Source: Paraglaciecola polaris LMG 21857
GTDB lineage: Bacteria > Pseudomonadota > Gammaproteobacteria > Enterobacterales > Alteromonadaceae
DNA length: 64,000 nt
Reading direction: 5' to 3'
Assembly: GCF_000315055.1 (NCBI RefSeq)
Contig: NZ_BAER01000033.1
Location: 1-64,000 of the forward strand
The notes beneath the pieces are model-generated. The model saw nothing but the letters and a program-made list of their open reading frames with translations. It did not search any database and was not told where the DNA came from. The position numbers and the translations under genes were made by a program. Position 1 is the stretch's first letter. Every line of letters begins with the position of its first letter. Positions 3,986 to 33,303 of this stretch are shown one piece after another.

Positions 3986-5611
3986 TTACTGAACGAATTT
4001 TTGGATGATACTCGCCATTCGATCTTTAACATCCATTAACGTCAGATTGTCTTCGTCACACGACTGGGCATGCTCACCGTTTAGTTTGGCAATTTGGCTT
4101 AACTCATTCAAATGCTGCAAGATTTGTTCAGTGACACTGGTTTGATGAGCAATCGCATTTACAATCTGCTGGTTCACTCCAGCAATATCCTCAATGGCAT
4201 TGGTCACGATTTTCAAGTTTCCATCGGCTTCCAGTACTTTATCCACACTGAATTTGGTTCCTTCCTGCCCTTGGCTAATGGCATTCACCGCATTGCTGGT
4301 ACCTTTTTGTACGTTAGCGATCATCTGCTTGATCTCTTCCGTTGACTGCTGGGTTTTAGCTGCTAGTGTGCGAACTTCATCCGCTACCACGGCAAAACCC
4401 CGTCCGTGCTCTCCCGCGCGGGCGGCTTCGATAGCAGCATTTAAGGCCAGTAAATTGGTTTGCTCAGCAATACCTTGGATCACATCTAGTACTGAGCCTA
4501 TTTTACGAGCATCCTCATTTAAATCAGAGATGACCTTAGCCGTATCTTCAATTTGCTGTGACGAGCTCGATATGGTCTCAATGGTTTGTTGCATCACATC
4601 GATACTGGTCACCGCTGATTGACTCGCTTGTGTGGCTGAATCTGCGGCTTGGTGAACATACTGAGATATGGTTTGCGCCACGTCGGTTAATTGATGTACG
4701 GCGTTTTGTACACTGGTAGTGCCGTGATTTTGCTCGGTCACACCTTGACTAATAGCCCCTGCGCTGTCGACTAAACTAAAGCAAACCCGGTCTAAATCCT
4801 GTTGCGTAGAACCAAGCCCTGAATGAATTTCGAGTAAATCTATACGCAATGACTCAATTGATTCCGTCATTTGTCCTATCTCATCTTTCCGGTCAGATGA
4901 TAATGGCTCCGCTAACTTGCCTTGACTCACATGGTAGATATGGCGACTAAGTTGGCGCAGTGGTGTGGTCACTAAGGCTTTAATTGCCCACAGTAAAACT
5001 CCCGCGCCTAACACAAGTGCCAACACTAAACCCGTGCTACCCCACCAGAGTGAATTAGCCACCTGATTATTTTGGTATGCATTTTGTTCAATGACATGTT
5101 GACTGATTTGAGCACTGAGTGCTTCAAGTAACTTAGTGGGCGCTCGGTCAATTCCGGTAACGGCATTATCACCGGCGTAGGGATCAAACCCGGCCTGAAC
5201 GAATGTGTCGTACCCCTTTTGATACTGTTTAAGTAAAGCACGGTGTTGAGTAGAAAAAATGCTCAGTTGCTGGCGGACACCTTGGCTCACTTGAATGTTT
5301 TTAAACTCTTCTACCAAGCCTTCTATTTCTTTATGCCGAGCAAGAAAGCTACGCCAATACTTTTCGCGTTTCGCGCTGTCTTTGCCACGCAATAACACGT
5401 TTTTCCATTCTTGAACTTGACGCTTGAAATTCAGGTTCATGCTGTCAATCAGTAACGTTGCTTTCACATCTTGCTCTAACAAATCACTGTATTGGCTCAC
5501 GTGTGAATTGAGACTATTGATGATTAATGCTGCGATCAAAGCAAAAACGGCCACAAACATCATTAATACACTAAATACCTTGGAACTGAGTTTTTTCATA
5601 ATAAACAGCAT
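3986..5611 (-). CDS. Methyl-accepting chemotaxis protein
   Basis: Membrane chemoreceptor that senses a periplasmic ligand and signals to CheA/CheW. 541 aa: TM1 at about 10-30; periplasmic helical sensor about 31-185, with no motif that names the ligand; TM2 about 188-212; HAMP about 213-266; and a cytoplasmic coiled coil with the invariant hairpin tip [20 protein letters not shown] and [18 protein letters not shown]. It has no CheR-binding pentapeptide at the C-terminus (ends IIQKFVQ). AGGA lies just before the start. A start four codons later is also possible. Stands alone. Confidence 0.92.
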
Positions 5612-24010: not shown

Positions 24011-24061
24011 ACGAATAAAATAGATTAAAATCAAATGGTTATAAAAATAACTCAAACAAAA

Positions 24062-24076
24062 GAGTCATAATGACTC
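24062..24076. promoter_or_regulatory. NorR-type enhancer site 1
   Basis: Perfect palindrome GAGTCAT-A-ATGACTC, containing the GT-N7-AC core of known NorR sites. Its centre is about 60 bases upstream of the sigma-54 promoter. Confidence 0.7.
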
Positions 24077-24087
24077 ACAAAAAAATA

Positions 24088-24102
24088 GAGTCAATATGAC
24101 TC
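24088..24102. promoter_or_regulatory. NorR-type enhancer site 2
   Basis: GAGTCA-ATA-TGACTC, again with a GT-N7-AC core, centred 26 bp from site 1. A further half-site ATGACT lies at 24115-24120. E. coli norV has three sites of this type. Confidence 0.7.
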
Positions 24103-24209
24103 ATATGGTGTGTTATGACTTTAATTTTTTTTGTGGCATTATGTACCCAACCTAGAGCCATAAAATAACCACAAAGTAAATGGTGCAGGAAACTAACCGC
24201 TGAGATGAC

Positions 24210-30727: not shown

Positions 30728-31646
30728 GCTCAGCGACTGAGCTTGGGGCTAAATCAGCCGGTTTTGAATAAGGCAGGTTACGCTTAGGTGCAGTGCGTAC
30801 ATGAGTGCTGTACAAGGTTAAACCGGTAAAGGCTAAGCCGCCTACCAGATTACCCAACGCGGTAGGAATTTCATTCCATACCAAGTAATCCATGACTGAG
30901 AACTCCCCGCCTAAAATCAGGCTAAATGGGAACAAAAACATGTTAACCACTGAATGCTCAAATCCCATAAAGAAAAATAGGAAGATAGGCATCCACATAG
31001 CAATCACCTTACCGCTCACATGCGTAGAGATCATCGCACCGACCACACCCAACGACACCATCCAGTTACACAACATGCCGCGAATAAAAATCGTAAACCA
31101 ACCAGCGGTGCCATATTCCGCGTATCCTAATGTACGCGCTTCGCCTATCGAAGCCACTTTCTTGCCTATGGCCCCCGGGTCAGTGTTAAAGCCATAAGTA
31201 AATATAAAGGCCATCATGATAGCCACCGTTAACGCGCCGCCGAAATTACCTAAAAAAACTAAACCCCAATTACGTAAAACCCCTTTGACGGTCACGCCAG
31301 GACGTTTATCGATAAGGGCTAATGGCGTCAGTACAAACACACCAGTGAGCAAGTCGAAGCCCATAAGATACAACATACAAAAACCCACAGGGAATAAAAT
31401 AGCACCGAGTAAAAACATCCCAGTTTGCACTGCTATCGTAATAGCAAAAACAGCCGCCAGTGCCAAAATGGCTCCCGCCATATACCCCCGGATCAGGGTA
31501 TCTCGTGTGGACATGAATACTTTTGATTCCCCTGCATCAACCATTTTGGTGACAAACTCTGCCGGTAATAAATAAGCCATAAATAACCCCGTTAAATTTA
31601 GTATGTTGAACCTAATTTGTTGTGTTAGCCCGGATAAATCAGTCAT
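30714..31646 (-). CDS. Formate/nitrite transporter (FNT) family channel
   Basis: Pentameric inner-membrane channel for small monovalent anions. 310 aa with six hydrophobic helices, and the pore motif with the conserved His in FMGFEHSVVNMFLFP; LCNWMVSLGV is the second half-helix region. FocA, NirC and other types cannot be told apart by eye. AAAGG lies before ATG 31646. First gene of the operon leading to the PP2C/kinase and cyanase, so nitrite or perhaps cyanate is a likely cargo (inference). A terminator lies in its leader. Confidence 0.88.
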   Translation of the reverse strand: MTDLSGLTQQIRFNILNLTGLFMAYLLPAEFVTKMVDAGESKVFMSTRDTLIRGYMAGAILALAAVFAITIAVQTGMFLLGAILFPVGFCMLYLMGFDLLTGVFVLTPLALIDKRPGVTVKGVLRNWGLVFLGNFGGALTVAIMMAFIFTYGFNTDPGAIGKKVASIGEARTLGYAEYGTAGWFTIFIRGMLCNWMVSLGVVGAMISTHVSGKVIAMWMPIFLFFFMGFEHSVVNMFLFPFSLILGGEFSVMDYLVWNEIPTALGNLVGGLAFTGLTLYSTHVRTAPKRNLPYSKPADLAPSSVAEHATR

Positions 31647-31674
31647 TTCTGCCTTTCAAAAAAAACAAAAAAAC

Positions 31675-31726
31675 AAAAAAAACGGTGTCAGTTAACCCGC
31701 TAAAAAGCAGATAAACTAGACACCGT
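31675..31726 (-). terminator. Leader terminator (attenuator) before the FNT gene
   Basis: On the minus strand ACGGTGTC and GACACCGT (31719-31726 with 31682-31689) form an 8-bp stem directly followed by seven T, then two more T tracts, and only then the AAAGG and ATG. An alternative short hairpin TAGAC-GACGGT-GTCTA uses the same 5' arm, so the two folds exclude each other. This is the layout of a transcription attenuator. Confidence 0.7.
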
Positions 31727-31779
31727 CGTCTAAATAATTTATTTGAAAGGGCAAAAAACCCGAACCTTACTATTGCGGT

Positions 31780-31795
31780 TACAAGTCTTATGCCA
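31780..31795 (-). promoter_or_regulatory. Possible sigma-54 promoter of the FNT operon
   Basis: Minus strand TGGCAT-AAGAC-TTGTA resembles -24/-12 elements but has GT instead of the usual GC at -12. It would start a leader of about 120 nt including the attenuator. Confidence 0.35.
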
Positions 31796-32068
31796 ATAGA
31801 ATAAAATTAATATTTTCAATTAGTTAACCAAAATACTCAATATCACTCTGATACAAGTTGGTGCATAAAAAGTCTAATGGGTGCACCCAGTGCAACATTT
31901 TAGCGCAGCGCATATCAGCATTCGCGCAAAGCAATACCATGCATTTAAAAAATAGGTCAGATAACAACAGAGCGAAGCTTGGACAGTAAATAATCCTGTA
32001 TATAAAACAGTATTAAATGAAAACCTGACTGACGAGCAAAATCGGAATAGGGGACCATATTAGTAGCT
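31796..32068. other. Intergenic, mostly unexplained
   Basis: No gene seen. TGCAC-type half-sites cluster at 31861-31895 upstream of the FNT promoter (GTGCATAAA, GGGTGCACCC, GTGCAAC) but their spacing does not match the NtrC consensus. Confidence 0.3.
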
Positions 32069-32471
32069 GTCATAACCGTGTTACGGTCGACGCTCGATCG
32101 CGACGGGTCGCTTGCACAATAGAATATTGATTTGAAATTTGACTGAAACATCGAAATTGGAGCGAGAAACGAGGCTCGTAACCGGCAACCGCGTTACGGT
32201 CGACGCTCGATCGCGATTAATCGCTTGCACAATAGAATACTGATTTAAAATTTGACTGAAACGTCGAAATTGGAGCGGGAAACGAGACTCGTAACCGGCA
32301 ACCGCGTTGTCGTGACCCCTTGGGGTCGCATACTGAGTAACAATATTCCTTGCTCTGAACGCTTTAAATTTGCAGCGGGAAACGAGACTCGTAACCGGCA
32401 ACCGCGTTGTCGTGACCCCTTGGGGTCGCATACTGAGTAACAATATTCCGTTGCTCTGAACGCTTTAAATT
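32069..32471 (-). repeat. Tandem repeats carrying damaged tRNA-Gly 3' ends
   Basis: Reading down from the tRNA on the minus strand: unit A (32471-32372) and unit B (32371-32272), about 100 bp, almost identical to each other; unit C (32271-32159), 113 bp; and unit D (32158-32069), which is partial and like C. Units A, B and C each end in the same about 37-nt piece: AACGCGGTTGCCGGTTACGA then GTCTCGTTTCCCGCTCC or a close variant. This resembles the tRNA's T-arm and acceptor end with the TTCGAA loop deleted. A and B also hold a GACCCC/GGGGTC hairpin. Confidence 0.85.
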
Positions 32472-32546
32472 TGGAGCGGGAAACGAGATTCGAACTCGCG
32501 ACCCCAACCTTGGCAAGGTTGTGCTCTACCACTGAGCTATTCCCGC
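32472..32546 (-). tRNA. tRNA-Gly (anticodon GCC), CCA encoded
   Basis: 75 nt including CCA. Acceptor GCGGGAA/TTCCCGC, D-arm GCTC-AGTGGTA-GAGC, anticodon arm CAACC-TTGCCAA-GGTTG with anticodon GCC, T-arm GCGAG-TTCGAAT-CTCGT, discriminator T then CCA. Nearly identical to E. coli glycine tRNA. Damaged 3'-end copies follow downstream. Confidence 0.97.
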
Positions 32547-32757
32547 ATAATAATGCTGTGCTTCGCAACCACTTTATGGTCATTGCTCAGTTCCTGAGCT
32601 ATTACAAAATCACCCACTGTCATCAACAGCGGGTGCGCATTTTACAAAAACTAGCTGAGGACGCAAGCCCTAAATTGCATTTATATGTGTTTGTTGCTGT
32701 TAAATGCTTAGATTCTCAACATAGAGGCGAAGAAAAACACAACAAAAGCATTTTAAA

Positions 32758-33303
32758 TTAGATATTGAATATGTGCTGGCGGTAAAACACCAGTTCTGCA
32801 ATTGACTCACGAATATCATCTAAGGCTAAATGCACGCCTTTTTTAGTAAAACCTTCAAGCACTTCTGGTTTCCAGCGTTTCACTAACTCTTTTAACGTGC
32901 TCACATCAATATTGCGATAGTGAAAATATTCTTCTAGTTCAGGCATGTACTTCACCATAAAGCGGCGATCTTGGCCTATGGTATTACCACATAAAGGGGA
33001 TGCTCCCTTAGGAACGTATTTTTCAAGAAAGCGTATTGTTTCAGCCACTGCCGTTTGTTCGTTAATCGTGCTTTTCTGACAACGTTCTGTTAATCCCGAT
33101 TGACCATGGGTGTCAATGCACCATTGGTTCATGTTGTGCAAAACATCGTCAGATTGATGAATGGCCAGCACCGGGCCCTCTGCCAATATATTCAAATTAG
33201 CGTCAGTCACTATAGTGGCAATTTCAAGCACTACATCTACTTCTGGGTGCAACCCCGTCATTTCCAAATCAATCCAAACAAGGTTTTGTGCATCCACCGC
33301 CAT
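32758..33303 (-). CDS. orn: Oligoribonuclease
   Basis: 3'-5' exonuclease that degrades RNA dinucleotides, including pGpG from cyclic-di-GMP breakdown. 181 aa, the family length. DEDDh motifs: Exo[14 protein letters not shown], Exo[13 protein letters not shown] with the Asp, and ExoIII with [11 protein letters not shown]. Divergent from rsgA with a 112-bp shared promoter region, the usual gammaproteobacterial arrangement. Confidence 0.97.

Follow-up and report, generated by a model that had tools for sequence, protein, structure and literature searches.

Hairpin-interrupted copies of tRNA-Gly form a tandem array behind tRNA-Gly(GCC) in Paraglaciecola polaris and recur beside tRNA-Gly(GCC) in related bacteria

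Introduction

Directly behind the only tRNA gene in a 64,000-nucleotide stretch of the Paraglaciecola polaris LMG 21857 genome (the whole stretch analyzed, hereafter the window) lies a series of short tandem repeats that carry pieces of the tRNA. What are these repeats, do they have relatives elsewhere, and could they be RNA rather than junk? To our knowledge, tandem repeats of tRNA ends have so far rested largely on one locus, the tyrT/tyrV tail of Escherichia coli, where one repeat is annotated rttR (rtT RNA; tpr reading frame) and where rtT RNA biology and Rho-dependent termination form the background. An earlier note on this DNA had likened the P. polaris layout to tyrT, and the likeness was borne out, since the 178-bp repeats behind tyrV each end in the last bases of the tRNA. 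We report here that the P. polaris repeats are a real array of hairpin-interrupted tRNA-Gly copies and belong to a wider family; no description of units of the Paraglaciecola type was found in the open-licence literature.

Results

The array behind tRNA-Gly(GCC)

ARAGORN found a single tRNA in the window, tRNA-Gly(GCC) on the minus strand (Table 1). Its upstream neighbor is a reading frame (32758-33303, minus) that we take to be orn; the best-matching named relatives of Orn are those of Paraglaciecola sp. 20A4 (95%, L104) and P. chathamensis (94%, L105), a genus that NCBI assigns to the Alteromonadaceae. Tandem Repeats Finder detected 2.1 copies of 113 bp at 32074-32308 (91% matches, score 400) and 2.2 copies of 100 bp at 32270-32492 (96% matches, score 425), which confirmed the two flavors of 100- to 113-bp repeats described earlier. 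On the minus strand, 3' of tRNA-Gly, the array comprises three complete units (u1 to u3) and a truncated fourth (u4), and the three tRNA 3' fragments reported before were confirmed with ends at 32371, 32271 and 32158. The acceptor 3' strand of u1 terminates in GCTGCA. With our two unit models, R1 and R2, u1 scored 61.4 bits (R2) and u2 85.2 (R1) and 68.2 bits (R2), u2 itself being part of both models. ARAGORN and Rfam RF00005 recognized the intact gene alone at this locus, and the units were not matched as functional tRNAs. RF00005 was also the only Rfam family above its gathering score in positions 31500-33000 of the window and in 13 loci, and the two ORFs tested over the repeats (64 and 120 aa) had no Pfam match. 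The array is not an artefact of draft assembly, because similar arrays occur in three genomes of one or two contigs each (G001, G007 and G012).

Upstream of the tRNA, a probable promoter was recognized by eye: TTGCGT (32661-32666), a 16-nt spacer and TAAAAT (32639-32644), followed by GCGCACCC. It fell below the cut-off of a consensus promoter scan and is absent from the list of that scan. In G001, G002, G008, G012 and G020 this tRNA likewise has TAAAAT or TAGAAT upstream, with GCGC after it. The interval from orn to tRNA-Gly also contains a terminator-like hairpin (32611-32635, minus), which coincides with the probable transcription start of the tRNA or follows it closely. By eye, the sequence AATAGCTCAGGAACTGAGCAATGACCATAAAGTGG upstream of the intact gene (32569-32603, minus) resembles a further remnant of a tRNA-Gly 5' half, and G008 has a longer version that perfect hairpins break up (L078, ~1720-1855). 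The window also contains a short AT-rich tandem repeat with a period of ~26 bp at 24044-24103.

Table 1. Coordinates of the tRNA-Gly gene, the repeat units and the candidate promoter within the window
Feature	Position	Strand	Remarks
Intact tRNA-Gly(GCC) gene, CCA encoded	32472..32546	-	ARAGORN; Rfam RF00005, 71.9 bits
u1: variable 5' half, H2 GCGACCCCAAGGGGTC, interrupted T stem, altered T loop	32371..32471	-	
u1 inserted 14-mer CAACGCGGTTGCCG	32396-32409	-	in T stem
u2: built as u1	32271..32370	-	terminates in GCTCCA
u2 inserted 14-mer CAACGCGGTTGCCG	32296-32309	-	
u3: second flavor	32158..32270	-	terminates in CTCGTTTCTCGCTCCA; R2 39.7 bits
u3 tandem hairpin 14-mer TCGAGCGTCGACCG	32197-32210	-	
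u3 tandem hairpin 14-mer TAACGCGGTTGCCG	32183-32196	-	
u4: truncated, without T loop and without acceptor fragment after its hairpins	32074..32157	-	
Probable promoter of tRNA-Gly transcript	32639..32666	-	by eye

A hairpin interrupts the T stem of the units

Family alignments revealed a unit core of RCGA, a hairpin of ~14 nt and GTTACGA[AG]TCTCGTTTCCCGCTCCA, where the intact tRNA has GCGAGTTCGAATCTCGTTTCCCGCTCCA. Of the tRNA, a complete unit still has the T stem and the 3' acceptor strand, and its T loop is altered. The hairpin, designated H3, sits within the 5' strand of the T stem after its fourth base and has a stem of 4-5 bp and a loop of usually 3-4 nt; the interrupted T stem pairs RCGA with TCGT in the Paraglaciecola and Alteromonas units of our alignments A1 and A3. 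The earlier description of these fragments as having lost a TTCGAA loop is better replaced by that of an insertion, which the family alignments show. The H3 stems include CAAC/GTTG, CCAC/GTGG, CAGC/GCTG, CCGA/TCGG, CCGG/CCGG and TCGA/TCGA, among others, and in two other families GCCGA/TCGGC, GCCAA/TTGGC, GCTGG/CCAGC and GCCGG/CCGGC. A second hairpin, H2 (GCGACCCC-AA-GGGGTC and variants), is common to the units, whose end is TTTCCCGCTCCA. The full end was present in 69 of 96 units and the intact T-loop motif in 2 of 96. Units that lack H3 also exist (L075, L077 and the second unit of L067), and H3 14-mers were found in tandem runs as well. We hold this anatomy with high confidence.

Pairing was assessed in two overlapping alignments. 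For A1, a regex gave 46 matches, one of which, in G019, was false and was removed; 26 of the 44 distinct unit ends of 70 nt were used, and the 18 left out were multi-H3 and acceptor-insert units, three H3-less units of the glyW-like locus, near-duplicates, the near-full L113:5154 and two from L121. A3 contained 38 hand-picked matches (36 distinct), without multi-H3 matches and further copies from the same arrays, so that H3-less, truncated (u4) and multi-H3 units lie outside both. Since the rows are related and chosen, the figures show a pattern rather than independent events: in A3, H3 was paired in 95.8% of cells and the T stem in 95.7%, as counted in the aligned register and not from the first four-pair hairpin met. 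Two-sided changes were found at all four H3 pairs, with ~4% broken cells. The covariation score of H3 was 0.408 (slid structures, 0.053-0.076; shuffles, 0.160), while two of five measures in A3 were not clearly above shuffles, namely the pairs with two-sided changes (15/500) and the further pair types (449/500). H2 was weaker than H3 (70.8% paired in A1). RNAalifold on A1 predicted H3 and two H2 pairs and did not predict the T stem, and folding of single units was weak, with z-scores of -0.5 to -1.75 for the units of P. polaris and -3.9 to +0.35 for four others. We rejected a closing stem between the 3' acceptor strand and the 5' part of the same unit, of the kind seen in rttR and suggested by one fold of L111: such pairing reached p<0.05 in 1 of 77 units, with a median p of 0.475.

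Units recur beside tRNA-Gly(GCC) in other genomes

Forty stretches from 21 genomes of the same genus were surveyed along with the two loci of P. polaris, an extra 3' fragment being accepted with up to 4 mismatches in 18. Of the 19 Paraglaciecola genomes that could be assessed, 10 had extra fragments after the orn-side tRNA-Gly (G000, G001, G002, G006, G007, G008, G012, G015, G016 and G020; the orn side of G015 is deduced, as its contig ends before orn) and 9 had none; G005, G011 and G017 fall outside the 19. Each such locus held one to six, and in G002, G007 and G012 fragment-bearing units lie between two intact tRNA-Gly genes. At the glyW-like locus, extra fragments were seen in 8 of 21 genomes. 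Units of the same type recur at tRNA-Gly among these relatives, and their presence is patchy.

Searches with R1 and R2 reached further. R1 over 196 genomes of the family gave at least 42 matches above the 37.4 bits of intact tRNA-Gly, in at least 15 genomes and five genera, and R2 over 394 genomes of the order gave at least 43 matches above 38 bits in at least 11 genomes of the families f1, f15 and f7. Intact tRNA-Gly reached at most 36.9 bits under R2, both ceilings being read from the result tables. The counts are lower bounds because 27 (R1), 15 (R2, order) and 16 (R2, class) candidates per genome were scored and the filters were strict. Among the matches listed above intact tRNA-Gly, all lay beside tRNA-Gly(GCC), one of them (G049:C4) placed only by its position ~50 bases from a tRNA-Gly match. 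R2 over 369 genomes of the class, at an E-value of 2e-8 and with 16 candidates scored per genome, matched two genomes (G000 and G068), both from the family of P. polaris and none from outside it. In 44 loci read closely, all 96 matches above 38 bits were downstream of a tRNA-Gly on the same strand, at a median distance of 84 and a maximum of 980 bases; those loci were chosen for tRNA-Gly, so that the independent evidence is that of the R1 and R2 searches. The units thus recur beside tRNA-Gly(GCC) in Alteromonadaceae and two further families.

We also found tRNA-Gly copies in Vibrio loci (L140, L142-L145, L167 and L170) in which a hairpin-like insert replaces the T loop. A pattern of 14-40 nt between GGTCRYG and YCTCGT occurred in 18 of 394 genomes; in seven of these the match is an intact tRNA that happens to have CTCGT further downstream, and in the other 11 the tRNA-Gly copy is genuinely interrupted, by inserts like CCTAAGCCTTGAAGATCGGGAA. 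The 11 genomes all belong to family f21 (33 f21 genomes among those listed); as this insert is also found in L142, from V. chagasii, we take f21 to be Vibrionaceae. The D and anticodon arms are complete in several of these copies, and interrupted copies of Vibrio still scored 41-44 bits with RF00005. They resemble the Paraglaciecola units in being tRNA-Gly with a hairpin-like T-arm insert and an intact 3' end, but their insert, of the CCTTTTTGTT..AGGG type, takes the place of the T loop and has no sequence relation to H3. They are a parallel T-arm-interrupted form, whose insert may or may not share ancestry with H3. In tRNA-Gly/tRNA-Met clusters of this type (L142-L145, L170 and L242-L260) we read up to three interrupted copies per cluster, and annotation pipelines may miscount tRNAs there. 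A non-exhaustive literature search found no paper on these Vibrio copies.

A second locus suggests that units are transcribed

P. polaris carries a second unit (C103, locus L002) in the order tRNA-Gly, unit, tRNA-Cys, tRNA-Leu, and the draft genome gave no match to tRNA-Cys other than the one in this cluster. A scan of the coding strand placed a promoter-like sequence (TTGACA, 16 nt, TAGAAT; 11/12) before tRNA-Gly only and a terminator-like hairpin after tRNA-Leu only, with neither type of site in between; as the scan yields about as many sites in shuffles, this result is no more than supportive. Because the unit stands between tRNA-Gly and the sole tRNA-Cys found, it is probably transcribed: if tRNA-Cys is made from this operon, so is the unit. 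The transcript beyond tRNA-Gly envisaged by the earlier note is accordingly one that we infer from sequence, and transcription of the units in general appears likely. In two genomes of family f15 (L289 and L290; G299 and G266), terminator-like hairpins with T runs, recognized by eye and by folding, precede the units. These units may depend on read-through or on promoters of their own.

Near-complete intermediates and the identity of T stem and H3

Twelve of 89 distinct units had a tRNA-Gly-like 5' part at p<0.01 (alignment to tRNA-Gly, 400 shuffles, uncorrected p), where about one would be expected by chance. Six were from L269, two each from L113 (Alteromonas halophila) and L121 (Salinimonas profundi), and one each from L115 (A. 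genovensis) and L288, the last being weak (p=0.0075); a unit of G006 had p=0.001. The L115 copy ending at 5358 retains a complete tRNA-Gly 5' half and is changed only in the T arm and a few bases of the 3' strand. The other 77 units, those of the window included, had no tRNA-like 5' half at this threshold, and aligning the window's 5' halves directly to tRNA-Gly gave no significant support for a tRNA origin (u1, p=0.36). The ancestry claim therefore rests on the intermediates (L113, L115, L121, L269 and G006), which indicate descent of the units from complete tRNA-Gly genes or recombination with them.

The 3' ends of the units mostly follow the allele of the host tRNA. Judged by the bases before TCTCG, the 75 units in AA hosts had AA in 57, CA in 9, AG in 2 and GA in 1 (6 unread), and the 21 units in AG hosts had AG in 20 and GG in 1. 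Together with the tRNA-like 5' halves, this on the whole supports the earlier proposal that the array changes by recombination. The window itself fits less well, as its u1 and u2 are the sole two AG units in an AA host.

With one hand-chosen unit per genome from 7 genomes, five close-clade units compared with those of G001/G020 were 90% identical in T stem plus H3, 96% in the 3' fragment and 40% in the 5' half, against 47% for a control of 60-nt leaders (four close-clade leaders versus G001/G020). Within the close clade, T stem plus H3 was 89% identical, the 5' half 75% and the leader 57%, so the unit 5' half is itself more alike than the leader. The tRNA has no H3, so the identity of H3 cannot stem from conversion by the tRNA. 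Selection on RNA would be the simpler reading, although recent spread or hairpin turnover may lie behind it; on balance we regard selection on the T-arm/H3 domain as about an even prospect.

Discussion

The earlier reading of this DNA did not include the T-arm hairpin insertion or its covariation, the second locus, or the occurrence of such units in several genera and families. Our best explanation, which we favor without regarding it as secure, is that the array consists of degenerate tandem copies of tRNA-Gly(GCC) from an old, shared, T-arm-interrupted lineage whose T-arm/H3 RNA would be under selection. Copy number would change by recombination between identical 3' ends. The units would be co-transcribed with tRNA-Gly as its 3' trailer or as an internal spacer, and would be excised by the maturation of tRNA 3' ends, with RNase E cutting in the A/U-rich stretch after each CCA and exonucleases following. 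The predicted products are RNAs of ~100 nt with a T-arm-like domain, unable to act in translation. The weakest step is that selection may maintain this domain as RNA. It might act as a decoy or sponge that binds a small RNA or a factor of tRNA processing, a role that we consider doubtful. An extended form of the proposal, which we put forward only tentatively, is a new, conserved class of small RNA: a 'half-tRNA' made of the tRNA-Gly 3' half with a side hairpin on its T stem, retained next to tRNA-Gly(GCC) genes in several families, tandemly amplified, released during tRNA maturation and possibly titrating a tRNA-binding factor or small RNA. If this were true, the dose of the RNA would follow tRNA-Gly transcription.

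The main rival shares the anatomy and differs in the selection step. It holds that the array is neutral: surplus tRNA-Gly genes decay, unequal exchange amplifies them, conversion keeps their 3' ends, and H3 is replaced as whole hairpins by slippage or template switching, with no selected product. We consider this a serious possibility, somewhat short of even. It would explain why most 3' ends match the host tRNA allele, why copy number and presence vary between genomes, why truncated and H3-less units and tandem runs of H3 14-mers occur, why a tRNA-Gly copy of G008 (L078) is split by perfect hairpins of another kind, and why the folding z-scores are weak. It is harder to reconcile with the across-species identity of T stem and H3 next to unit 5' halves that have diverged, given that H3 does not come from the tRNA, and with pairing that survives two-sided changes with so few broken cells.

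Another reading makes the units counterparts of rttR, with the transcribed repeats serving as both tail and terminator of the tRNA operon. The layouts are alike: tandem repeats stand directly behind the tRNA, each with the tRNA 3' bases and CCA, and by eye several hairpins precede the 3' fragment, although u4 lacks that end. The E. coli locus differs in its tRNA (tRNA-Tyr) and in its period of 178 bp, and no T-arm hairpin of the H3 type was demonstrated there. Furthermore, the 3' fragment of rttR pairs inside the repeat (GGGGAAGGAT/ATCCTTCCCC, p=0.002), as was seen in only 1 of 77 units here. Since units also lie between tRNA-Gly genes and inside the glyW-like operon, they cannot be terminators only, and we judge this reading unlikely. 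An origin of rttR as a decayed tRNA-Tyr was tried and dropped, with p=0.02 only and an alignment that was not the expected one.

Two other known systems bear comparison. 3'ETS-leuZ is located after leuZ and is not known to be a tRNA copy. The units would resemble it and the tRNA-precursor spacers of E. coli and Salmonella as probable spacer RNA of a polycistronic tRNA transcript, and here too an operon like glyW-cysT-leuZ bears a unit. RNase E is reported to generate the 5' end of leuZ-3'ETS (PMC5222698), which is described as a sponge of RyhB and RybB (PMC8166272). In Bacillus cereus, the pseudo-tRNA tRNA-Other, reported as possibly acting within a larger RNA (PMC3399842), is likewise a tRNA-like element without a role in translation; it differs in being single, beside a pathogenicity island and from a Firmicute, and the abstract of that report mentions no tandem units.

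A mobile origin of H3 also deserves consideration, since four Paraglaciecola genomes have RAYT-like genes close to tRNA-Gly loci, and it may apply. In the full form of this reading, a RAYT-type transposase would have spread the hairpins as REP-like mobile palindromes that landed by chance in tRNA copies, which we think very unlikely. A RAYT-like gene directly follows the tail in G007 (L076 2055-3062, L203) and G008 (L078) (NCBIfam 37.6 bits, against a cut-off of 80), and one lies beside the glyW-like cluster in G001 (L065) and G004 (G004:C1:2798440-2798769). H3-type 14-mers are dispersed in at least six Paraglaciecola genomes (G001, G002, G006, G007, G008 and G016; L184-L202), and a REP survey marks both rttR and 3'ETS-leuZ as REP-containing (PMC12306157). 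On the other hand, G002, G006, G007 and G012 have arrays and no Y1_Tnp match (Pfam), and the Alteromonas-type 19-mer had all 16 of its matches at tRNA-Gly arrays (7/8 genomes), a count biased towards arrays as the 19-mer includes five flanking T-arm bases. Membership of the P. polaris hairpins in such a system was rejected, since the exact 14-mer is confined to the array (3 of 3 among the matches listed) and the single Y1_Tnp of the genome is unlinked to it. In G001 and G016 the dispersed 14-mers sit inside a larger repeat, AACGACAACGCGGTTGGCGCCC. Beyond the RAYT-like gene of G007 there is an isolated acceptor fragment that carries a 14-mer insert.

Least probable is that the fragments are scars of repeated phage or island integration, as the earlier note had allowed: tRNA 3' ends are common integration sites and the fragment length is typical, but u1-u3 had no match in 50,697 phage and 72,556 plasmid records, an 18-mer was found in one viral contig (for which chance suffices) and a 20-mer in none, and neither the 100- to 113-bp period nor a T-arm hairpin common to several genera fits.

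The array may be RNA rather than junk, and the family to which it belongs offers a second, comparative system beside the E. coli locus. It spans many species, has two loci in a genome, and includes both near-complete intermediates and a hairpin that covaries. The question of junk or RNA in tRNA tails thereby becomes directly testable. For annotators it carries a warning, as one unit lies within the operon that holds the sole tRNA-Cys found in the genome. More broadly, these units suggest a path from surplus tRNA genes to structured spacer RNAs.
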